DNA from: JBFJWU01 sp041623475 [NCBI: bacterium] | Lineage (GTDB): Bacteria; J088 | DNA length: 5,299 bases | Reading direction: 5' to 3' | Assembly (NCBI GenBank): GCA_041623475.1 | Contig: JBFJWU010000255.1 | Coordinates: 1 to 5,299 of the forward strand | Part shown: positions 169 to 5,157 of the stretch, one piece after another | How positions within the stretch are numbered: the first letter of the stretch is position 1 | Layout of the letters: every line of letters starts with the position of its first letter | Translations under genes and position numbers: made by a program | Notes under the pieces: model-generated | What the model was told of the DNA's origin: nothing | Database searches by the model: none | Seen by the model: the letters and a program-made list of their open reading frames with translations, nothing else

Positions 169-1155
169 ATGAGCGAACCGATTCATATACAGACAGACGA
201 ACCCCAGCCGTTCGCCGAGCGGGTTCTCCGCGAGACCGGGCGGCCATTGATGTCTGCAGGAATAGAGGTGGTGCAGGTCAATATTGGCCTGCGGTGCAAT
301 CTGGAATGTGAGCACTGCCATGTCGTTTCTTCGCCAAAGCGAACCGAGCAGATGGACTGGTCGACAATGGAACAGGTTGTCGGAGTGGCAAACACGGTCC
401 AACCGTCCGTTGTTGACATTACCGGCGGGGCGCCGGAGATGCACCCCCGGTTCCGGGAGTTTGTCGAACTGCTTCATGCCAGCGGGCACCACGTCCAGGT
501 CCGGACGAACCTGACTATTTTCTATGAGCCCGGATATGATTGGTTGCCCGGTTTTTTCCGAGATCACCAGGTCGAACTGGTTGCGTCAATGCCCTGTTAC
601 CTGAAGGACAACGTCGACAGACAGCGGGGTACAGGCACTTTTGACAAAAGCGTTGAGGCCTTGCGCTGGCTGAATTCGCTGGGTTACGGGCGCGACTCGG
701 CATTGCCGCTGCACCTCGTTTACAACCCGACCGGCGTTCACCTTCCCCCGGACCAGGCCGGTCTGGAAGCTGACTATCGGCAGCGCCTGGCCGATGACCA
801 TGACATTTATTTCACCGGATTGTTTACGATCACCAATATGCCGATCGGTCGTTGGCGGGCGGATTTGCAGCGCGAAGGCCGACTGGACGATTACCTGGGG
901 TTGTTGGCCTCGGGTTTCAATTCCGAAACCGTGCCCGCGTTGATGTGTCGTCACCAGATCGAAATTGGCTGGGATGGCACGTTGTACGACTGTGATTTTC
1001 ACCTGGCGCACAGATTGGGCCTTCACGAATCGGTTCCCGGACACGTTCGTGATTTTGATCCGGACGTGCACAGCGTCCGGACCATTGTTACCCGTGATTA
1101 CTGTTACGGATGTACGGCCGGCGCAGGGTCTTCGTGCGGCGGGGCGCTGGCTTGA
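169..1155 (+). CDS. arsS: Arsenosugar biosynthesis radical SAM protein ArsS
   Basis: This is a 328-residue cytosolic radical SAM enzyme. The family cleaves SAM and joins its 5'-deoxyadenosyl group to a dimethylated arsenical made by ArsM, the committed step toward arsenosugars. Visible here are the [4Fe-4S] motif CNLECEHC (Cys43, Cys47, Cys50), the SAM-binding GGAPE (86-90), the family blocks ASMPCYL (139-145), LVYNPTG (183-189) and FTITNMPIGR (219-228), and IGWDGTLYDCDF (266-277) with Cys275. A Cys-rich tail, CYGCTAGAGSSCGG (312-325), holds Cys312, Cys315 and Cys323. Some relatives carry selenocysteine in this tail; here all three tail cysteines are TGT or TGC. ATG 169 is chosen over an in-frame TTG at 148 because AAGGA (152-156) precedes it, though the 12-nt spacer is long. 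It heads a coupled operon: its TGA stop shares a base with the next start. Confidence 0.93.
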   Translation: MSEPIHIQTDEPQPFAERVLRETGRPLMSAGIEVVQVNIGLRCNLECEHCHVVSSPKRTEQMDWSTMEQVVGVANTVQPSVVDITGGAPEMHPRFREFVELLHASGHHVQVRTNLTIFYEPGYDWLPGFFRDHQVELVASMPCYLKDNVDRQRGTGTFDKSVEALRWLNSLGYGRDSALPLHLVYNPTGVHLPPDQAGLEADYRQRLADDHDIYFTGLFTITNMPIGRWRADLQREGRLDDYLGLLASGFNSETVPALMCRHQIEIGWDGTLYDCDFHLAHRLGLHESVPGHVRDFDPDVHSVRTIVTRDYCYGCTAGAGSSCGGALA

Positions 1156-2006
1156 TGACCGCCCGCCTTGTCTCACCAGGCCTGTGCCTGCTGGCGATGG
1201 CTGCAGTCCTGCATTCGCCTGCCGACGCAAACGAGAGCTGTTCGGATTTCAGTCGGTACGGCCAGGTCCTGACGGTTTCTGTCAATCAGGAGGGCCTTGT
1301 CGACTACGCGGGCCTCAAAGCTGATCGATCAGGCCTGGACGACGCGATCAATGAATTTGCCAACTGCCTGCCTGGTGTTCTCGACAAATTGACCGAGGAC
1401 GGGCAGATCGCGTTTTGGATCAACGTCTACAATGCTTTTACCCTGCAGGTCATCATTGACCACTATCCGATAGCCGGTGGACTGCTTGGTCGGCTGGCTT
1501 GGCCGGAAAACAGTATTCGCCAGATTCCACGTGTATGGAAGTCGTTCCGGGTCCACACTTATGCCCGGCAGCTGTCGCTGAATGACATCGAGCATGAGAT
1601 CCTGCGGAAAAAATTTGATCGGCCCGAAATTCATATGGGACTCGTGTGCGCCTCGTTGGGGTGTCCGGTTCTTGCCACTACGCCGTACACAGGCCCAACG
1701 CTGAGGGCTCAGCTGCGCTCGCAGGCGATACAGTTTTTGTCGCGGCCAGCAAATTTCGCATTTGGCCCCGAGGATAATACGCTGTCGGTATCCAGTATTT
1801 TTGACTGGTTCGGCGAGGATTTTTCCGGCTATCCAGGAGCGATGACGATGCCCACCGACGTTCGTGGTACCACGCCAGGTGTGCTGGCATATTTGCATGA
1901 CCACGTCGACGCTGATGCCGCCGAACGAATCCGGGCAGGCGGATTCAAAGTCCAGTTTTCTGACTATGACTGGGGCTTGAACGATCAGGCGACCGCCGGT
2001 GAATAA
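1155..2006 (+). CDS. Exported DUF547 domain protein
   Basis: This is a 283-residue protein with an N-terminal signal peptide: a hydrophobic core LCLLAMAAVL (about 10-19) and a likely signal peptidase I site after ADA (23-25). It should act in the periplasm. The rest is a DUF547 domain with its usual blocks: FWINVYNAFTLQVII (87-101), SLNDIEHEILR (141-151), MGLVCASLGCPVL (161-173) with Cys165 and Cys170, SSIFDWFGEDF (213-223) and YDWGLND (271-277). The biochemical role of DUF547 is not established. The conserved His160 and the two nearby cysteines could bind a metal or metalloid, but that is inference. The start at 1155 overlaps the arsS stop in TGATG. An in-frame ATG at 1110 would add 15 basic residues before the signal peptide and lies inside the arsS tail, so it is not preferred. 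Confidence 0.88.
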   Translation: MTARLVSPGLCLLAMAAVLHSPADANESCSDFSRYGQVLTVSVNQEGLVDYAGLKADRSGLDDAINEFANCLPGVLDKLTEDGQIAFWINVYNAFTLQVIIDHYPIAGGLLGRLAWPENSIRQIPRVWKSFRVHTYARQLSLNDIEHEILRKKFDRPEIHMGLVCASLGCPVLATTPYTGPTLRAQLRSQAIQFLSRPANFAFGPEDNTLSVSSIFDWFGEDFSGYPGAMTMPTDVRGTTPGVLAYLHDHVDADAAERIRAGGFKVQFSDYDWGLNDQATAGE

Positions 2007-2013
2007 TTCAAGA

Positions 2014-2754
2014 ATGGATATCGAACGCGGACCTGCGACCGAGGAAAACCCGACCCGGAGCTCGCGAACCCGCGTAATCGTCTTTGCCGGTGTTGTCATG
2101 ATCCTGTTCCTGATCGGAACGCAGATCGATGCGGGCCACGAGATCGAACGGTTGAAATCATTTATCCGAGGGCTGGGGCCAGTGGGACCGGCTGCCTTTG
2201 TCGCGATCTATGTTGTCGCGACGGTGACGGCTATGCCGGGTTCCATCCTGTCAATTGTTGCCGGTGTCCTGTTCGGAACCTTGTGGGGTACCGTGATCAT
2301 CAGCATTGGCTCGACGCTTGGAGCAGCGGCCTCGTTCCTGATTGCCCGATACATTGCTCGCGATGCCGTCCGGCAGTGGCTGTCCGGGAAGCCGGCCTTC
2401 CAGCGACTGGAAACCCTTTCTGCGAACCGGGCAGCGCTGATCGTCGGAATTACACGGCTTGTCCCGTTGTTTCCGTTCAATCTGTTGAACTACGGTTTCG
2501 GGTTAACCAATATTCCGTTTCGAACGTACCTGTTCTGGTCCTGGTTGGGAATGTTGCCCGGCACCATTCTCTACGTTGGTGGATCGGATGCGGTTGCCCG
2601 TTCTGTGGCAGGAGATTCGTCGGTGGCCGTGATCGCTGTTGTCGGGATAATTCTTGTCCTGCTGTTGGTCCTGGGTCGAATCGGTCGCAGGAAACTGAAT
2701 GAACTGGACGCAGAGGCCGGCGAGCCGCAGGTCAATGGCGAGGTCACGACATGA
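2014..2754 (+). CDS. TVP38/TMEM64 family (VTT/DedA-like) inner-membrane protein
   Basis: This 246-residue integral membrane protein has hydrophobic segments near residues 21-37, 57-75, 76-114 (two spans), 137-156, 170-190 and 203-222. VTT-domain hallmarks are clear: AMPGSILSIVAGVLFG (73-88), then small residues GSTLGAAASFLIARY (99-113), and the second half GITRLVPLFPFNLLNYGFGLT (145-165) with the conserved Arg and PFN, followed by GMLPGTILYVGG (179-190). Family members are thought to move lipids or small solutes across the membrane; the substrate here is unknown. The start is uncertain. ATG 2014 leaves a 7-nt gap after the DUF547 stop and has only GGTGA (1998-2002) far upstream. An in-frame GTG at 1999 would add five residues and overlap that stop by 8 nt. 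Its end overlaps the next start by ATGA, and related proteins are known fused to the same oxidoreductase type. Confidence 0.9.
   Translation: MDIERGPATEENPTRSSRTRVIVFAGVVMILFLIGTQIDAGHEIERLKSFIRGLGPVGPAAFVAIYVVATVTAMPGSILSIVAGVLFGTLWGTVIISIGSTLGAAASFLIARYIARDAVRQWLSGKPAFQRLETLSANRAALIVGITRLVPLFPFNLLNYGFGLTNIPFRTYLFWSWLGMLPGTILYVGGSDAVARSVAGDSSVAVIAVVGIILVLLLVLGRIGRRKLNELDAEAGEPQVNGEVTT
2740..2744 (+). promoter_or_regulatory. Ribosome binding site for the oxidoreductase
   Basis: GAGGT lies 6 nt before the ATG at 2751, inside the end of the VTT gene. It is the clearest Shine-Dalgarno sequence in the operon. It fixes this start and allows independent re-initiation at the ATGA junction. Confidence 0.6.
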
Positions 2755-4274
2755 CGCGGCCAATTCCCCGTTCCGGCAGTCCTTACGATGTTGAACGCCT
2801 GCGGCACGTGGCGCCCGATGACTGGACCAATCCTGAACCCGCCGAGTTGTATGACCTGGTCGTCATCGGCGCCGGGTCCGGTGGCCTGGTGACTGCGGCA
2901 GGCGCGGCCGGACTGGGCGCGCGCGTTGCCCTGGTCGAGGCCGCAGAAATGGGCGGTGACTGCCTGAATGTGGGCTGTGTTCCGTCAAAGGGGCTGATAT
3001 CTGCGGCGCGGGTTGCCGCTGCAGCGCGATCTGCCGGCACCTATGGGATAACCGCCCCCGATGTAACCGTCGAATTTGCCAGAGTTATGGAACGCATGCG
3101 GTCCATTCGAGCCGAGATCAGTCCGGTGGACGGTGCGGCGCGTTTCCAGAACGAGCTGGGCGTCGACGTCTTTCTGGGCAGGGGTCGTTTCGTTAAGGAC
3201 GGGCGCGTAGACGTTGCAGGGCAGCACCTCAACTGGCGACGAGCAGTGATTGCAACCGGTGCAAGGGCGGCATTGCCTCCGGTGGATGGACTTGCAGAAT
3301 CTGGCCCGTTGACCAATGAAACTGTTTTTGACCTGGTTGAAGCGCCTGGACGGTTATTTGTGATCGGTGCGGGGCCGATCGGTTGCGAACTGGCCCAGGC
3401 GTTTGCCCGCCTGGGCAGCAAGGTGACACTTGCCGACATCAGCGAGCGCGTCCTGCCACGCGAGGATCCAGAGGCTGCTGAACTGATTACGAACCAGCTG
3501 CGAGTTGATGGTGTGAACCTGGTTCTTGGAAGCCAGATCAAGAAAGTAAACTGCCGGGGAGAAACGCGAACGATTGTGCTGGACGGTGGGAACGGTGAGC
3601 AGGCAATCGAAGCGGACCATATCCTGGTCGCTGCCGGGCGCATTCCAAACGTCGATGACCTGGGACTGGAGTACGTACAGGTTGACTATGATCACCGGAC
3701 CGGTGTTGTGGTTAATGACCGGCTGCAAACCAGCAATCCGAAGATCTTTGCTGTGGGTGATGTCGCCGTCCCGTATCAATTCACCCACATGGCCGATGCA
3801 ACGGCCCGGATCGTGATCCAGAATGCCTTGTTTTTCGGCCGCAAGAAATGGACAGACCTGGTTGTGCCATGGGTTACCTACACGGAGCCGGAAGTCGCCC
3901 ACGTGGGTATCAGCAAGGCAGAGGCCAGCAGCAACGGAATCGAGATTGATGAATACCGGGTTGATCTGAATGATGTGGACCGGGCGATGCTGGACGGCGA
4001 GCGCGAAGGCTATGTATCGATCCTGACCGAAAAAGGTCGTGACCGGATCCTGGGCGCGACAATAGTGGCCAGCCACGCTGGCGAAATGATCGGGGAAGTG
4101 ACCACCGCAATGACGCACGGTATCGGTCTGGGGGGCCTTGGTTCAGTGATCCATCCGTACCCGACACAGGCCGAGGCAGTTCGTAAAGCCGCCGATGCCT
4201 ACAGTCGAACTCGATTGACCCCGTTTGCTGCCCGCCTGCTGGCATTCCTGATCAAGCTTCGTCGGCGATTATGA
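2751..4274 (+). CDS. FAD-dependent pyridine nucleotide-disulfide oxidoreductase, mercuric reductase-like
   Basis: This 507-residue class I flavin disulfide reductase has a 33-residue N-terminal extension. Next come the FAD fold VVIGAGSGG (37-45), the redox-active disulfide CLNVGC (Cys71, Cys76) followed by VPSK, and ATGARAALPP (168-177). The NAD(P) fold GAGPIG (206-211) has Asp229 at the end of the second strand, which favours NADH. The second FAD motif is IFAVGDV (332-338), and the dimerization domain carries HPYPTQAE (468-475). Much of it resembles MerA (ELAQAFARLGSKVT, 213-226), and homologues are often called mercuric reductase. However, there is no N-terminal metal-binding GMTCxxC domain and no C-terminal Cys-Cys pair; the protein ends in LIKLRRRL. 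A tyrosine (Tyr470) replaces the catalytic histidine of lipoamide dehydrogenase. The substrate is unknown; a disulfide, an arsenical-thiol adduct or a membrane-linked partner is possible. Confidence 0.9.
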   Translation: MTRPIPRSGSPYDVERLRHVAPDDWTNPEPAELYDLVVIGAGSGGLVTAAGAAGLGARVALVEAAEMGGDCLNVGCVPSKGLISAARVAAAARSAGTYGITAPDVTVEFARVMERMRSIRAEISPVDGAARFQNELGVDVFLGRGRFVKDGRVDVAGQHLNWRRAVIATGARAALPPVDGLAESGPLTNETVFDLVEAPGRLFVIGAGPIGCELAQAFARLGSKVTLADISERVLPREDPEAAELITNQLRVDGVNLVLGSQIKKVNCRGETRTIVLDGGNGEQAIEADHILVAAGRIPNVDDLGLEYVQVDYDHRTGVVVNDRLQTSNPKIFAVGDVAVPYQFTHMADATARIVIQNALFFGRKKWTDLVVPWVTYTEPEVAHVGISKAEASSNGIEIDEYRVDLNDVDRAMLDGEREGYVSILTEKGRDRILGATIVASHAGEMIGEVTTAMTHGIGLGGLGSVIHPYPTQAEAVRKAADAYSRTRLTPFAARLLAFLIKLRRRL

Positions 4275-4356: not shown

Positions 4357-5157
4357 ATGGCAAAGAATTTTTCTGATACATACGGCCCGTGGGCGATCGT
4401 GACTGGTGCCAGCTCCGGAATCGGGATGGAATTTGCAACAATCCTGGCCGGACGCGGCCTGAACTGCGTGCTGGTCGCTCGCCGTCAGGACAACCTGCAG
4501 AAACTTGCCGCGGAACTCGCAAATGCACACGGTGTACAGACCAAGGTAGTGGCATTGGACCTTGGGCAGGACGATGCTGCGGTTGTCCTGGATCGCGCAA
4601 CCGAAGAACTGGATGTTGGCTTATTGATCAATAATGCCGGCTTCGGGCACAGTGGCATGTTCCTGGATCTGGAACTGGACCAGCAAATCGAGTGTGTCGA
4701 TGTCAATCTGCGGACGCCAGTGGCCTTGACGTATCTGTTTGGTCGTCGCTTTCGTGCCCGCGGTCGCGGCGGGATTATCCTTGTTGGTTCGACCGTTTCG
4801 TTTTTGCCGGTTCCGGGGTTATCGATTTACGCCGGCACGAAAAGTTTTCACACATTTTTCGGCCAGAGCATTCGCCACGAGATGAAACAGCACAATATTG
4901 ATGTTCAGGTGCTTTGTCCAGGAACGACCCGAACGGGATTCCAGGAGGTGTCCGGGACGCGTAACTTCCTGGCCATGTCGCCCCGAACCGTCGCCGAGAT
5001 TTCGATCCGCAAGCTGGGACGGCAGACGGTCGTGGTGACTGGAATTGTCAACAAGGCCGTGGCTTTTCTGACGCGGATTGCTCCCCGGTCGATCGCAACC
5101 AGTTTGTCAGCATTTGTCATGCGTATGATGCGCGTCAAGGCGTTACCGCGAACGTAA
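4357..5157 (+). CDS. Short-chain dehydrogenase/reductase (classical SDR)
   Basis: This 266-residue Rossmann-fold NAD(P)(H) oxidoreductase has the cofactor motif TGASSGIG (16-23), NNAG (92-95), Asn117, and the catalytic set Ser145, Tyr158 and Lys162 in YAGTK, followed by the PGTTRTGF region (188-195). Arg42 and Arg43 after the second strand favour NADPH. It resembles the YqjQ/DltE group of broad SDRs, whose substrates are mostly unknown. The C-terminal part (224-258) is rather hydrophobic and may touch membrane or lipid. ATG 4357 gives the usual short lead before the glycine motif. An in-frame GTG at 4339 would add six residues (MVQFPF) and has GGGA 8 nt upstream, so it cannot be excluded. It sits 82 nt after the operon and may be co-transcribed or separate. 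Its 3' end overlaps the convergent DUF2914 gene by 23 bp. Confidence 0.9.
   Translation: MAKNFSDTYGPWAIVTGASSGIGMEFATILAGRGLNCVLVARRQDNLQKLAAELANAHGVQTKVVALDLGQDDAAVVLDRATEELDVGLLINNAGFGHSGMFLDLELDQQIECVDVNLRTPVALTYLFGRRFRARGRGGIILVGSTVSFLPVPGLSIYAGTKSFHTFFGQSIRHEMKQHNIDVQVLCPGTTRTGFQEVSGTRNFLAMSPRTVAEISIRKLGRQTVVVTGIVNKAVAFLTRIAPRSIATSLSAFVMRMMRVKALPRT

Follow-up and report, generated by a model that had tools for sequence, protein, structure and literature searches.

In the 5,299-nt stretch of DNA analysed here (contig JBFJWU010000255.1 of the bacterium JBFJWU01 sp041623475, hereafter the window), arsS, the gene of a radical SAM enzyme of arsenosugar biosynthesis, runs head to tail with genes encoding a DUF547 protein, a VTT/DedA membrane protein of the TVP38/TMEM64 type and an FAD/NAD(P)H two-dinucleotide-binding reductase, designated OXR. 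An earlier note, made from these letters alone, had suggested that the three partner families recur near arsS and process, reduce or move its product or protect the membrane from it. Our survey of arsS and OXR loci established that the association of VTT and OXR with arsS is real and broader than first thought, standing above controls and across phyla, whereas recurrence of DUF547 was not significant; the VTT-OXR-DUF547 trio is not ArsS-specific. In clusters such as this one, the trio is probably a working part of organoarsenical metabolism. A redox and membrane role is plausible, but the proposed tie to the ArsS product found no support in that form: genomes occur with only one of OXR and ArsS, and VTT-OXR mostly stands without arsS in the OXR loci that were picked away from it.

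All four genes are encoded on the plus strand. The arsS gene (169..1155, 328 aa) matched TIGR04167 with 410.4 bits against a cut-off of 300 and PF12345 with 163.9 bits, and the cysteines of its radical SAM motif CxxxCxxC (C43, C47 and C50) were invariant in 6 sequences. The ATG of the DUF547 gene (1155..2006, 283 aa; PF04784, 77.5 bits against a cut-off of 27) overlaps the arsS stop codon in a TGATG junction (1153..1157). The VTT gene (2014..2754; PF09335, 98.9 bits against a cut-off of 33.9) may start at ATG 2014, leaving a 7-nt gap, or at GTG 1999, giving an 8-nt overlap with the DUF547 gene, and it shares an ATGA overlap (2751..2754) with the OXR gene (2751..4274), which matched NF004991 (FAD-containing oxidoreductase subfamily, PRK06370.1-3) with 741 bits against a cut-off of 620. 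The arrangement and junctions at 169-4274 are thus exactly as the earlier note had them. No NCBIfam model matched VTT or DUF547 at E up to 0.001, and arsenosugar models were absent from the best 25 NCBIfam matches of OXR. Promoter-like matches (2 versus 2.1 by chance) and terminator-like matches (6 versus 5.3) in the window were at chance level, so that the scan neither points to an internal break nor proves its absence.

Neighbourhoods were compared in four sets of loci. Set A comprised arsS loci from many phyla, namely the best 80 of at least 589 confirmed ArsS relatives, and its rates are low estimates because the contigs were often short. Set B held 60 hand-picked gammaproteobacterial arsS loci, most of them on contigs long enough to include flanks. 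Forty 16-kb regions from elsewhere in 40 set B genomes served as controls (set C). Set D consisted of 60 OXR loci hand-picked away from any listed arsS, mostly on contigs with flanks, one of which (L227) proved to have ArsS nearby after all. The neighbourhood rates do not include five plasmid loci or a short set of 30 loci, none longer than 3.9 kb. VTT was found in 14 of 80 set A loci, 21 of 60 set B loci and none of the 40 controls, and the corresponding counts for OXR were 11, 16 and 0 at a threshold of at least 510 bits. This threshold had been raised from 450 bits because two control matches proved to be like lipoamide dehydrogenase (LPD); both of these matches, found in 2 of the 40 controls at 450 bits, carried the LPD histidine. 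For comparison, TIGR04282-like genes were present in 27, 46 and 0 loci of sets A, B and C, TIGR04283-like genes in 29, 42 and 0, and ArsM-like genes in 24, 21 and 0. These and the other neighbour labels derive from hidden Markov models built in this study; for each of the TIGR04282, TIGR04283 and TIGR04169 groups, one representative scored above its NCBIfam cut-off, and the representative of the ArsM-like set scored below the curated ArsM cut-off. One or more of VTT, OXR and DUF547 occurred in 18/80 set A loci, which belong to nine named phyla and unassigned ones, and in 25/60 set B loci. When the neighbours in sets A and B were clustered, the OXR group, which retains LPD-like rows from two control loci, ranked fourth in frequency and standalone VTT fifth.

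Among 369 gammaproteobacterial genomes, ArsS exceeded its cut-off in 180 and OXR (E up to 1e-140) was present in 154; 121 genomes had both, 59 ArsS only, 33 OXR only and 156 neither. At least 31 of the 150 listed OXR places had a listed arsS place at most 10 kb away, compared to 0.66 expected from the 99 OXR places in genomes with a listed ArsS under random placement in 3-Mb genomes. These and the other gammaproteobacterial co-location counts are lower bounds because the arsS place was listed in only about 149 of the 180 ArsS genomes. Cyanobacteria showed the association as well: ArsS was found in 108 of 145 genomes and OXR above the cut-off in 84, 8 of 87 OXR places were within 10 kb of ArsS, and VTT, searched with one cyanobacterial query, lay within 10 kb of 16/111 ArsS places and 27/87 OXR places. 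Synechococcus elongatus has matches to both TIGR04167 and NF004991.

Several loci hold these genes on one strand together with others of the arsenosugar gene set. L124 reads OXR-VTT-ArsS-ArsM-TIGR04283-sterol desaturase-TIGR04282, and L076 reads DUF547, ArsM-ArsS-VTT-OXR-TIGR04283-TIGR04282. In the cultured Neptunomonas marina (L015), the gene after arsS encodes a VTT-OXR fusion. The exact order arsS-DUF547-VTT-OXR had no second case in the surveyed loci; the closest order was that of L008, where 4.3 kb separates arsS from DUF547-VTT-OXR. In set A, the AhpD-like family TIGR04169 (25 loci) and OXR (11 loci) co-occurred in none of the 80 loci (p 0.014), as if either could serve, although taxonomy may explain part of this exclusion. 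Fe-S or AhpD-like genes accompany arsS in the OXR-less loci L010, L040 and L084. As further observations on arsS loci, the cyanobacterial L039 carries in a row on one strand an ArsM-like gene, a PiT transporter-like gene, ArsS and VTT, and a sigma-70-type (extracytoplasmic function-like) factor was encoded in 11/60 set B loci and 0/40 controls. Synechocystis slr0304 presumably encodes ArsS between slr0303 and slr0305. Of its assumed flanking genes, slr0303 is arsM (PMC4010505) and the product of slr0305 is a VTT protein grouping with YdjX/YdjZ (PMC3836016).

DUF547 behaved differently from VTT and OXR: it is linked with OXR instead of arsS. It was found near arsS in 5/80 loci of set A and 3/60 of set B. 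It was present in 83 of the 369 gammaproteobacterial genomes at 103 places. OXR lay at most 10 kb from 19 of these places (0.52 expected) and a listed ArsS at most 10 kb from at least 6 (0.42 expected); the primary partner of DUF547 is thus OXR. It lay within 1 kb of OXR in 8 of the 60 set D loci, and where a VTT-OXR fusion is followed by DUF547, the two overlapped by 4 nt in 5 of 6 such junctions. This measure uses the in-frame start nearest the stop and leans towards tight junctions. The junctions of the putative four-gene unit appear to be more than chance because these families meet in similarly tight junctions on one strand in other loci; the arsS-to-DUF547 junction itself had no further case among the surveyed loci. 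The DUF547 protein has a hydrophobic N-terminus, by eye a signal sequence, and its residues invariant in an alignment of 7 sequences include E146, H147, H160, C165, C170, W218 and D222, which would allow a possible Cys/His site. An AlphaFold2 model was fairly confident (pLDDT 82.8, pTM 0.83). The sequence gave one chance match to solved structures (E 0.46), and the fold gave no usable match (Foldseek best E 1.3; VIA-align best Z 4.8 over 556 chains), which is not proof of a new fold.

Away from arsS, VTT and OXR form a unit of their own: in 55/60 set D loci VTT was fused to OXR or at most 300 nt away. A single open reading frame (ORF) joined both domains in 44/55 VTT genes of set D, 5/21 of set B and 3/15 of set A. 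Other VTT fusions were also detected. VTT with DUF547 was seen once (L009), as was Fer4/CCG with VTT (L010); in the latter locus a fusion of DUF2064 (TIGR04282-like) with ArsS, likewise seen once, adjoins this Fe-S/CCG-VTT fusion (L010:6779-8512 and L010:8523-10376). VTT with a C-terminal rhodanese domain was more frequent in arsS loci (L108, L125, L129, L133, L135, L136, L140, L155, L164 and L175), amounting to 9/21 VTT in set B, 1/9 in the short set, 0/15 in set A and 0/55 in set D, and the rhodanese active-site cysteine was kept in 10/10 aligned fusions. Set D was chosen for OXR, and the contrast between sets B and D for rhodanese is not selection-free. ArsM-like, TIGR04282-like or TIGR04283-like genes accompanied VTT-OXR in six ArsS-less set D loci (L219, L225, L228, L229, L231 and L248; controls 0/40), four of which (L225, L229, L231 and L248) had ArsM-like genes. 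L248 reads [VTT-OXR]-DUF547-ArsM, and its ArsM passes the arsenosugar ArsM model NF038099 with 548 bits against a cut-off of 400. Moreover, L219, L225, L229 and L231 encode an undescribed radical SAM protein with a length of about 305-320 residues. Its gene follows OXR-TIGR04283 in L219 and stands between VTT-OXR and the ArsM-like gene in the other three, where it fills the usual place of ArsS. Two of these proteins were scored; they reached about 100 bits, the closest model having a cut-off of 380, and no homologue was detected in the other surveyed loci at E up to 1e-30. These genes possibly represent a second organoarsenical pathway.

The active site of OXR sets it apart from lipoamide dehydrogenase. 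Its redox cysteines lie in GGDCLNVGC, both kept in 96/96 aligned rows. In dihydrolipoyl dehydrogenase the His of the HPHPT motif is catalytic; OXR reads HPYPTQAE, with Tyr at this position. The Tyr was present in 90/91 rows of the OXR clade, the remaining row being truncated, and the His in 5/5 LPD-like rows; two solved mercuric reductases also align with Tyr there. OXR may therefore differ from the usual disulfide reductases, and a soft metal or metalloid could be a suitable substrate, as judged from its sequence. Assignment as dihydrolipoyl dehydrogenase was rejected on score (373.5 bits against a cut-off of 408.8) and on the Tyr in place of the catalytic His. Assignment as MerA was rejected as well (404.9 bits against a cut-off of 454.45); C-terminal vicinal cysteines are a feature of this mercuric reductase, and OXR is without the C-terminal CysCys. 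The Glu of the former His-Glu pair, kept in the window OXR, was Gln in 10/31 readable arsS-linked rows versus 2/59 unlinked ones. The window OXR falls on a starred branch of 14 rows in the OXR tree, together with arsS-linked OXRs from Planctomycetota, Poribacteria, Nitrospirota and Myxococcota and six gammaproteobacterial ones that lack such linkage. In this tree, which includes set D, chosen as unlinked, linkage to ArsS required 17 label changes, 11 of them forced by starred branches, compared to 27-30 in shuffles. This implies that the linkage is partly inherited, although it has been gained or lost several times.

How might these proteins work together? The window would join arsS to a three-part membrane redox module found in and outside arsenosugar-type clusters. 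In this scheme OXR would be a cytosolic NAD(P)H-FAD-dithiol reductase docking on VTT and re-reducing methylated arsenicals, e.g. DMAs(V) to DMAs(III), or thiol adducts, which would keep the trivalent, oxygen-destroyed substrate available for ArsM and ArsS. VTT would serve as membrane anchor or as a path for the reduced arsenical, and DUF547 may be its outward-facing partner. That OXR is a membrane-docked reductase keeping methylarsenicals reduced is deduced from gene context, and we put it forward tentatively, as somewhat short of an even chance. Substrates and products of ArsM are trivalent and air yields pentavalent species, and ArsS works with ArsM in Synechocystis (PMC8552651). COG0398 DedA proteins, the subfamily to which the window VTT is assumed to belong from the fusions of its relatives and from YdjX/YdjZ matches among VTT loci, track aerobic metabolism; 90% are unfused, and the commonest fusion is to this type of reductase (PMC10127716). 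A membrane-docked NAD(P)H reductase would fit both the trivalent chemistry of ArsM and this aerobic link. It would also fit VTT-OXR beside ArsM-like genes where ArsS is missing, and the Fe-S or AhpD-like genes where OXR is missing.

Several results weigh against a role of the trio in organoarsenical metabolism or against the reductase mechanism. Only 6 of the 59 ArsS-less set D loci had ArsM-like, TIGR04282-like or TIGR04283-like genes, and most ArsM labels denote similarity only, the ArsM-like genes of L225 and L231 falling below the curated cut-off. DUF547 is rare by arsS (8/140 versus 0/40 controls, p 0.13, not significant). Among the Gammaproteobacteria, 59/180 ArsS genomes lacked OXR and 33/154 OXR genomes lacked ArsS; the reductase mechanism leaves these OXR-less genomes and the role of DUF547 unexplained. 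The nearest ArsS relative (L006, 58%) has ArsM-ArsS and none of the trio in its 7.4-kb contig. No C-terminal CC was present in the last 12 residues of 62 OXR rows including the window, some of them partial. Furthermore, linkage is partly inherited, our counts are uncorrected for relatedness, and Synechocystis arsM is uninduced by arsenite or arsenate (PMC4010505).

An alternative is that VTT-OXR-DUF547 constitutes a general module against thiol or envelope stress that lies near arsS as stress genes group, with no contact to arsenicals. Up to 119 of the 150 listed OXR places away from listed arsS, the self-standing VTT-OXR of set D and the ynjB/C/F-type genes beside a few VTT-OXR would be expected of such a module. 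It accounts poorly for the one-strand gene sets with ArsM-like, ArsS, TIGR04282 and TIGR04283 genes, for replication of the association in Cyanobacteria, for the four ArsS-less loci with ArsM-like genes and for VTT-rhodanese fusions, seen in arsS loci but absent from set D; we regard it as unlikely, though a serious candidate. That the four genes came together by local accident in this genome only is very improbable: the exact order was not found again and its nearest counterpart has a 4.3-kb gap, but an accident conflicts with the survey counts for VTT and OXR and with the linkage of DUF547 to OXR.

Two further explanations retain contact with arsenicals and differ in chemistry. VTT could move arsenosugar phospholipids across the membrane, with OXR and a sterol-desaturase-like enzyme modifying them. 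Lipid movement has been proposed for other DedA relatives, sterol-desaturase-like genes occurred in 7/80 (A) and 14/60 (B) arsS loci versus 1/40 controls, and a ynjF-like CDP-alcohol phosphotransferase gene was present in 5/60 set D loci. However, ynjF-type matches were confined to set D, with none in arsS loci, and the observed fusion partners of VTT are redox or sulfur domains and DUF547, not lipid enzymes, so that this arsenolipid role seems to us improbable. Thio-arsenosugars are known compounds, and VTT with a rhodanese, AhpD-like or reductase partner might add or remove sulfane sulfur on arsenicals. The rhodanese fusions of set B with their conserved active-site cysteine, and ynjE-like stretches in L084, L120, L123 and L149, are consistent with this, but the window is without rhodanese and the fusion is missing from the VTT genes of sets A and D; we give thio-arsenical formation little credence. 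The membrane-docked reductase remains our preferred reading.

Beyond the unit, a short-chain dehydrogenase gene (4357..5157, plus strand; PF00106, 132.7 bits) begins 82 nt past OXR and is only a putative member. A single-sequence search with its product against the ORFs of 275 loci gave 7 distant matches (best E 2e-14). On the minus strand, divergent from arsS, positions 2-49 read MNSLLAIAVGGAIG, which by its motif looks like the opening part of a gene for a CrcB/FluC fluoride channel; the enclosing 82-aa ORF had no Pfam match. An Rfam scan of the window gave no match.

If the proposed role holds, DUF547, a VTT branch and a flavin reductase clade gain a testable chemical context in organoarsenical metabolism, arsenosugar synthesis in air gains a reductive step, and a substrate class is suggested for the YdjX/YdjZ-type DedA branch, which is related to human TMEM41B (PMC7818093), together with a starting point for the study of a so far unexplained operon of E. 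coli K-12. Searches of the open-licence literature, with subscription papers mostly outside its scope, yielded no association of VTT, TMEM64 or DUF547 with arsenosugars or ArsS, which may exist elsewhere; the DUF547 papers found there were mostly plant work. A wider reading, speculative and as a whole rather unlikely, takes VTT proteins of the YdjX/YdjZ branch as platforms for exchangeable dithiol or sulfur partners (FAD reductase, Fe-S/CCG, rhodanese, perhaps AhpD-like) acting on arsenicals or other soft, thiol-bound species. It would include an arsS-less pathway in which ArsM-like proteins and the second radical SAM enzyme may make another organoarsenical, and an anaerobic cousin in E. coli.

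This cousin would be ydjXYZ-ynjABCDEF of E. coli K-12, which has two VTT genes (ydjX and ydjZ), an AhpD-like gene, ynjA, ynjB, ynjC, ynjD and ynjF, and is listed in an FNR regulon table (PMC3688515). No ArsS, OXR or DUF547 is annotated in this stretch; homologues of its genes do occur in some VTT-OXR or arsS loci. L040 has a YdjZ-like (232 bits) and a YdjY-like gene (169 bits) by arsS, and L084 a YdjZ-like gene (275 bits). Homologues of YnjB, YnjC, YnjD and YnjF lie beside VTT-OXR in L266, L267 and L269, three of the four in L228 and L272, and a weak YnjF match in L271; ynjD-type ABC matches were also found in 7/40 controls. Overlap in gene content with the K-12 operon (L276) is seen both in some VTT-OXR loci and in arsS loci from Bacillota. 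An arsenic-related role for the operon is a proposal only.

With the arsenosugar gene set (ArsM, ArsS TIGR04167, TIGR04282, TIGR04283 and TIGR04169, NCBIfam names), the window shares ArsS, and its relatives hold VTT and OXR inside the set. Profile searches found neither ArsM nor TIGR04282/TIGR04283 glycosyltransferase genes within the window, and its VTT and DUF547 matched no NCBIfam model at E up to 0.001. With MerA, OXR has in common the fold family, the redox Cys pair and the Tyr where LPD has His; it differs in scoring below the MerA cut-off and in its C-terminus. The closest known counterpart of VTT-OXR is the published fusion of a COG0398 DedA protein with a pyridine-nucleotide-disulfide reductase (bifunctional TVP38/TMEM64-FAD oxidoreductase), a subfamily marked by the lack of acidic and basic residues at its re-entrant tips, for which the available part of the paper names no arsenic link (PMC10127716). 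The same two domains, fused in many relatives of the window proteins, are encoded in the window by two separate overlapping genes, joined by DUF547 and arsS.

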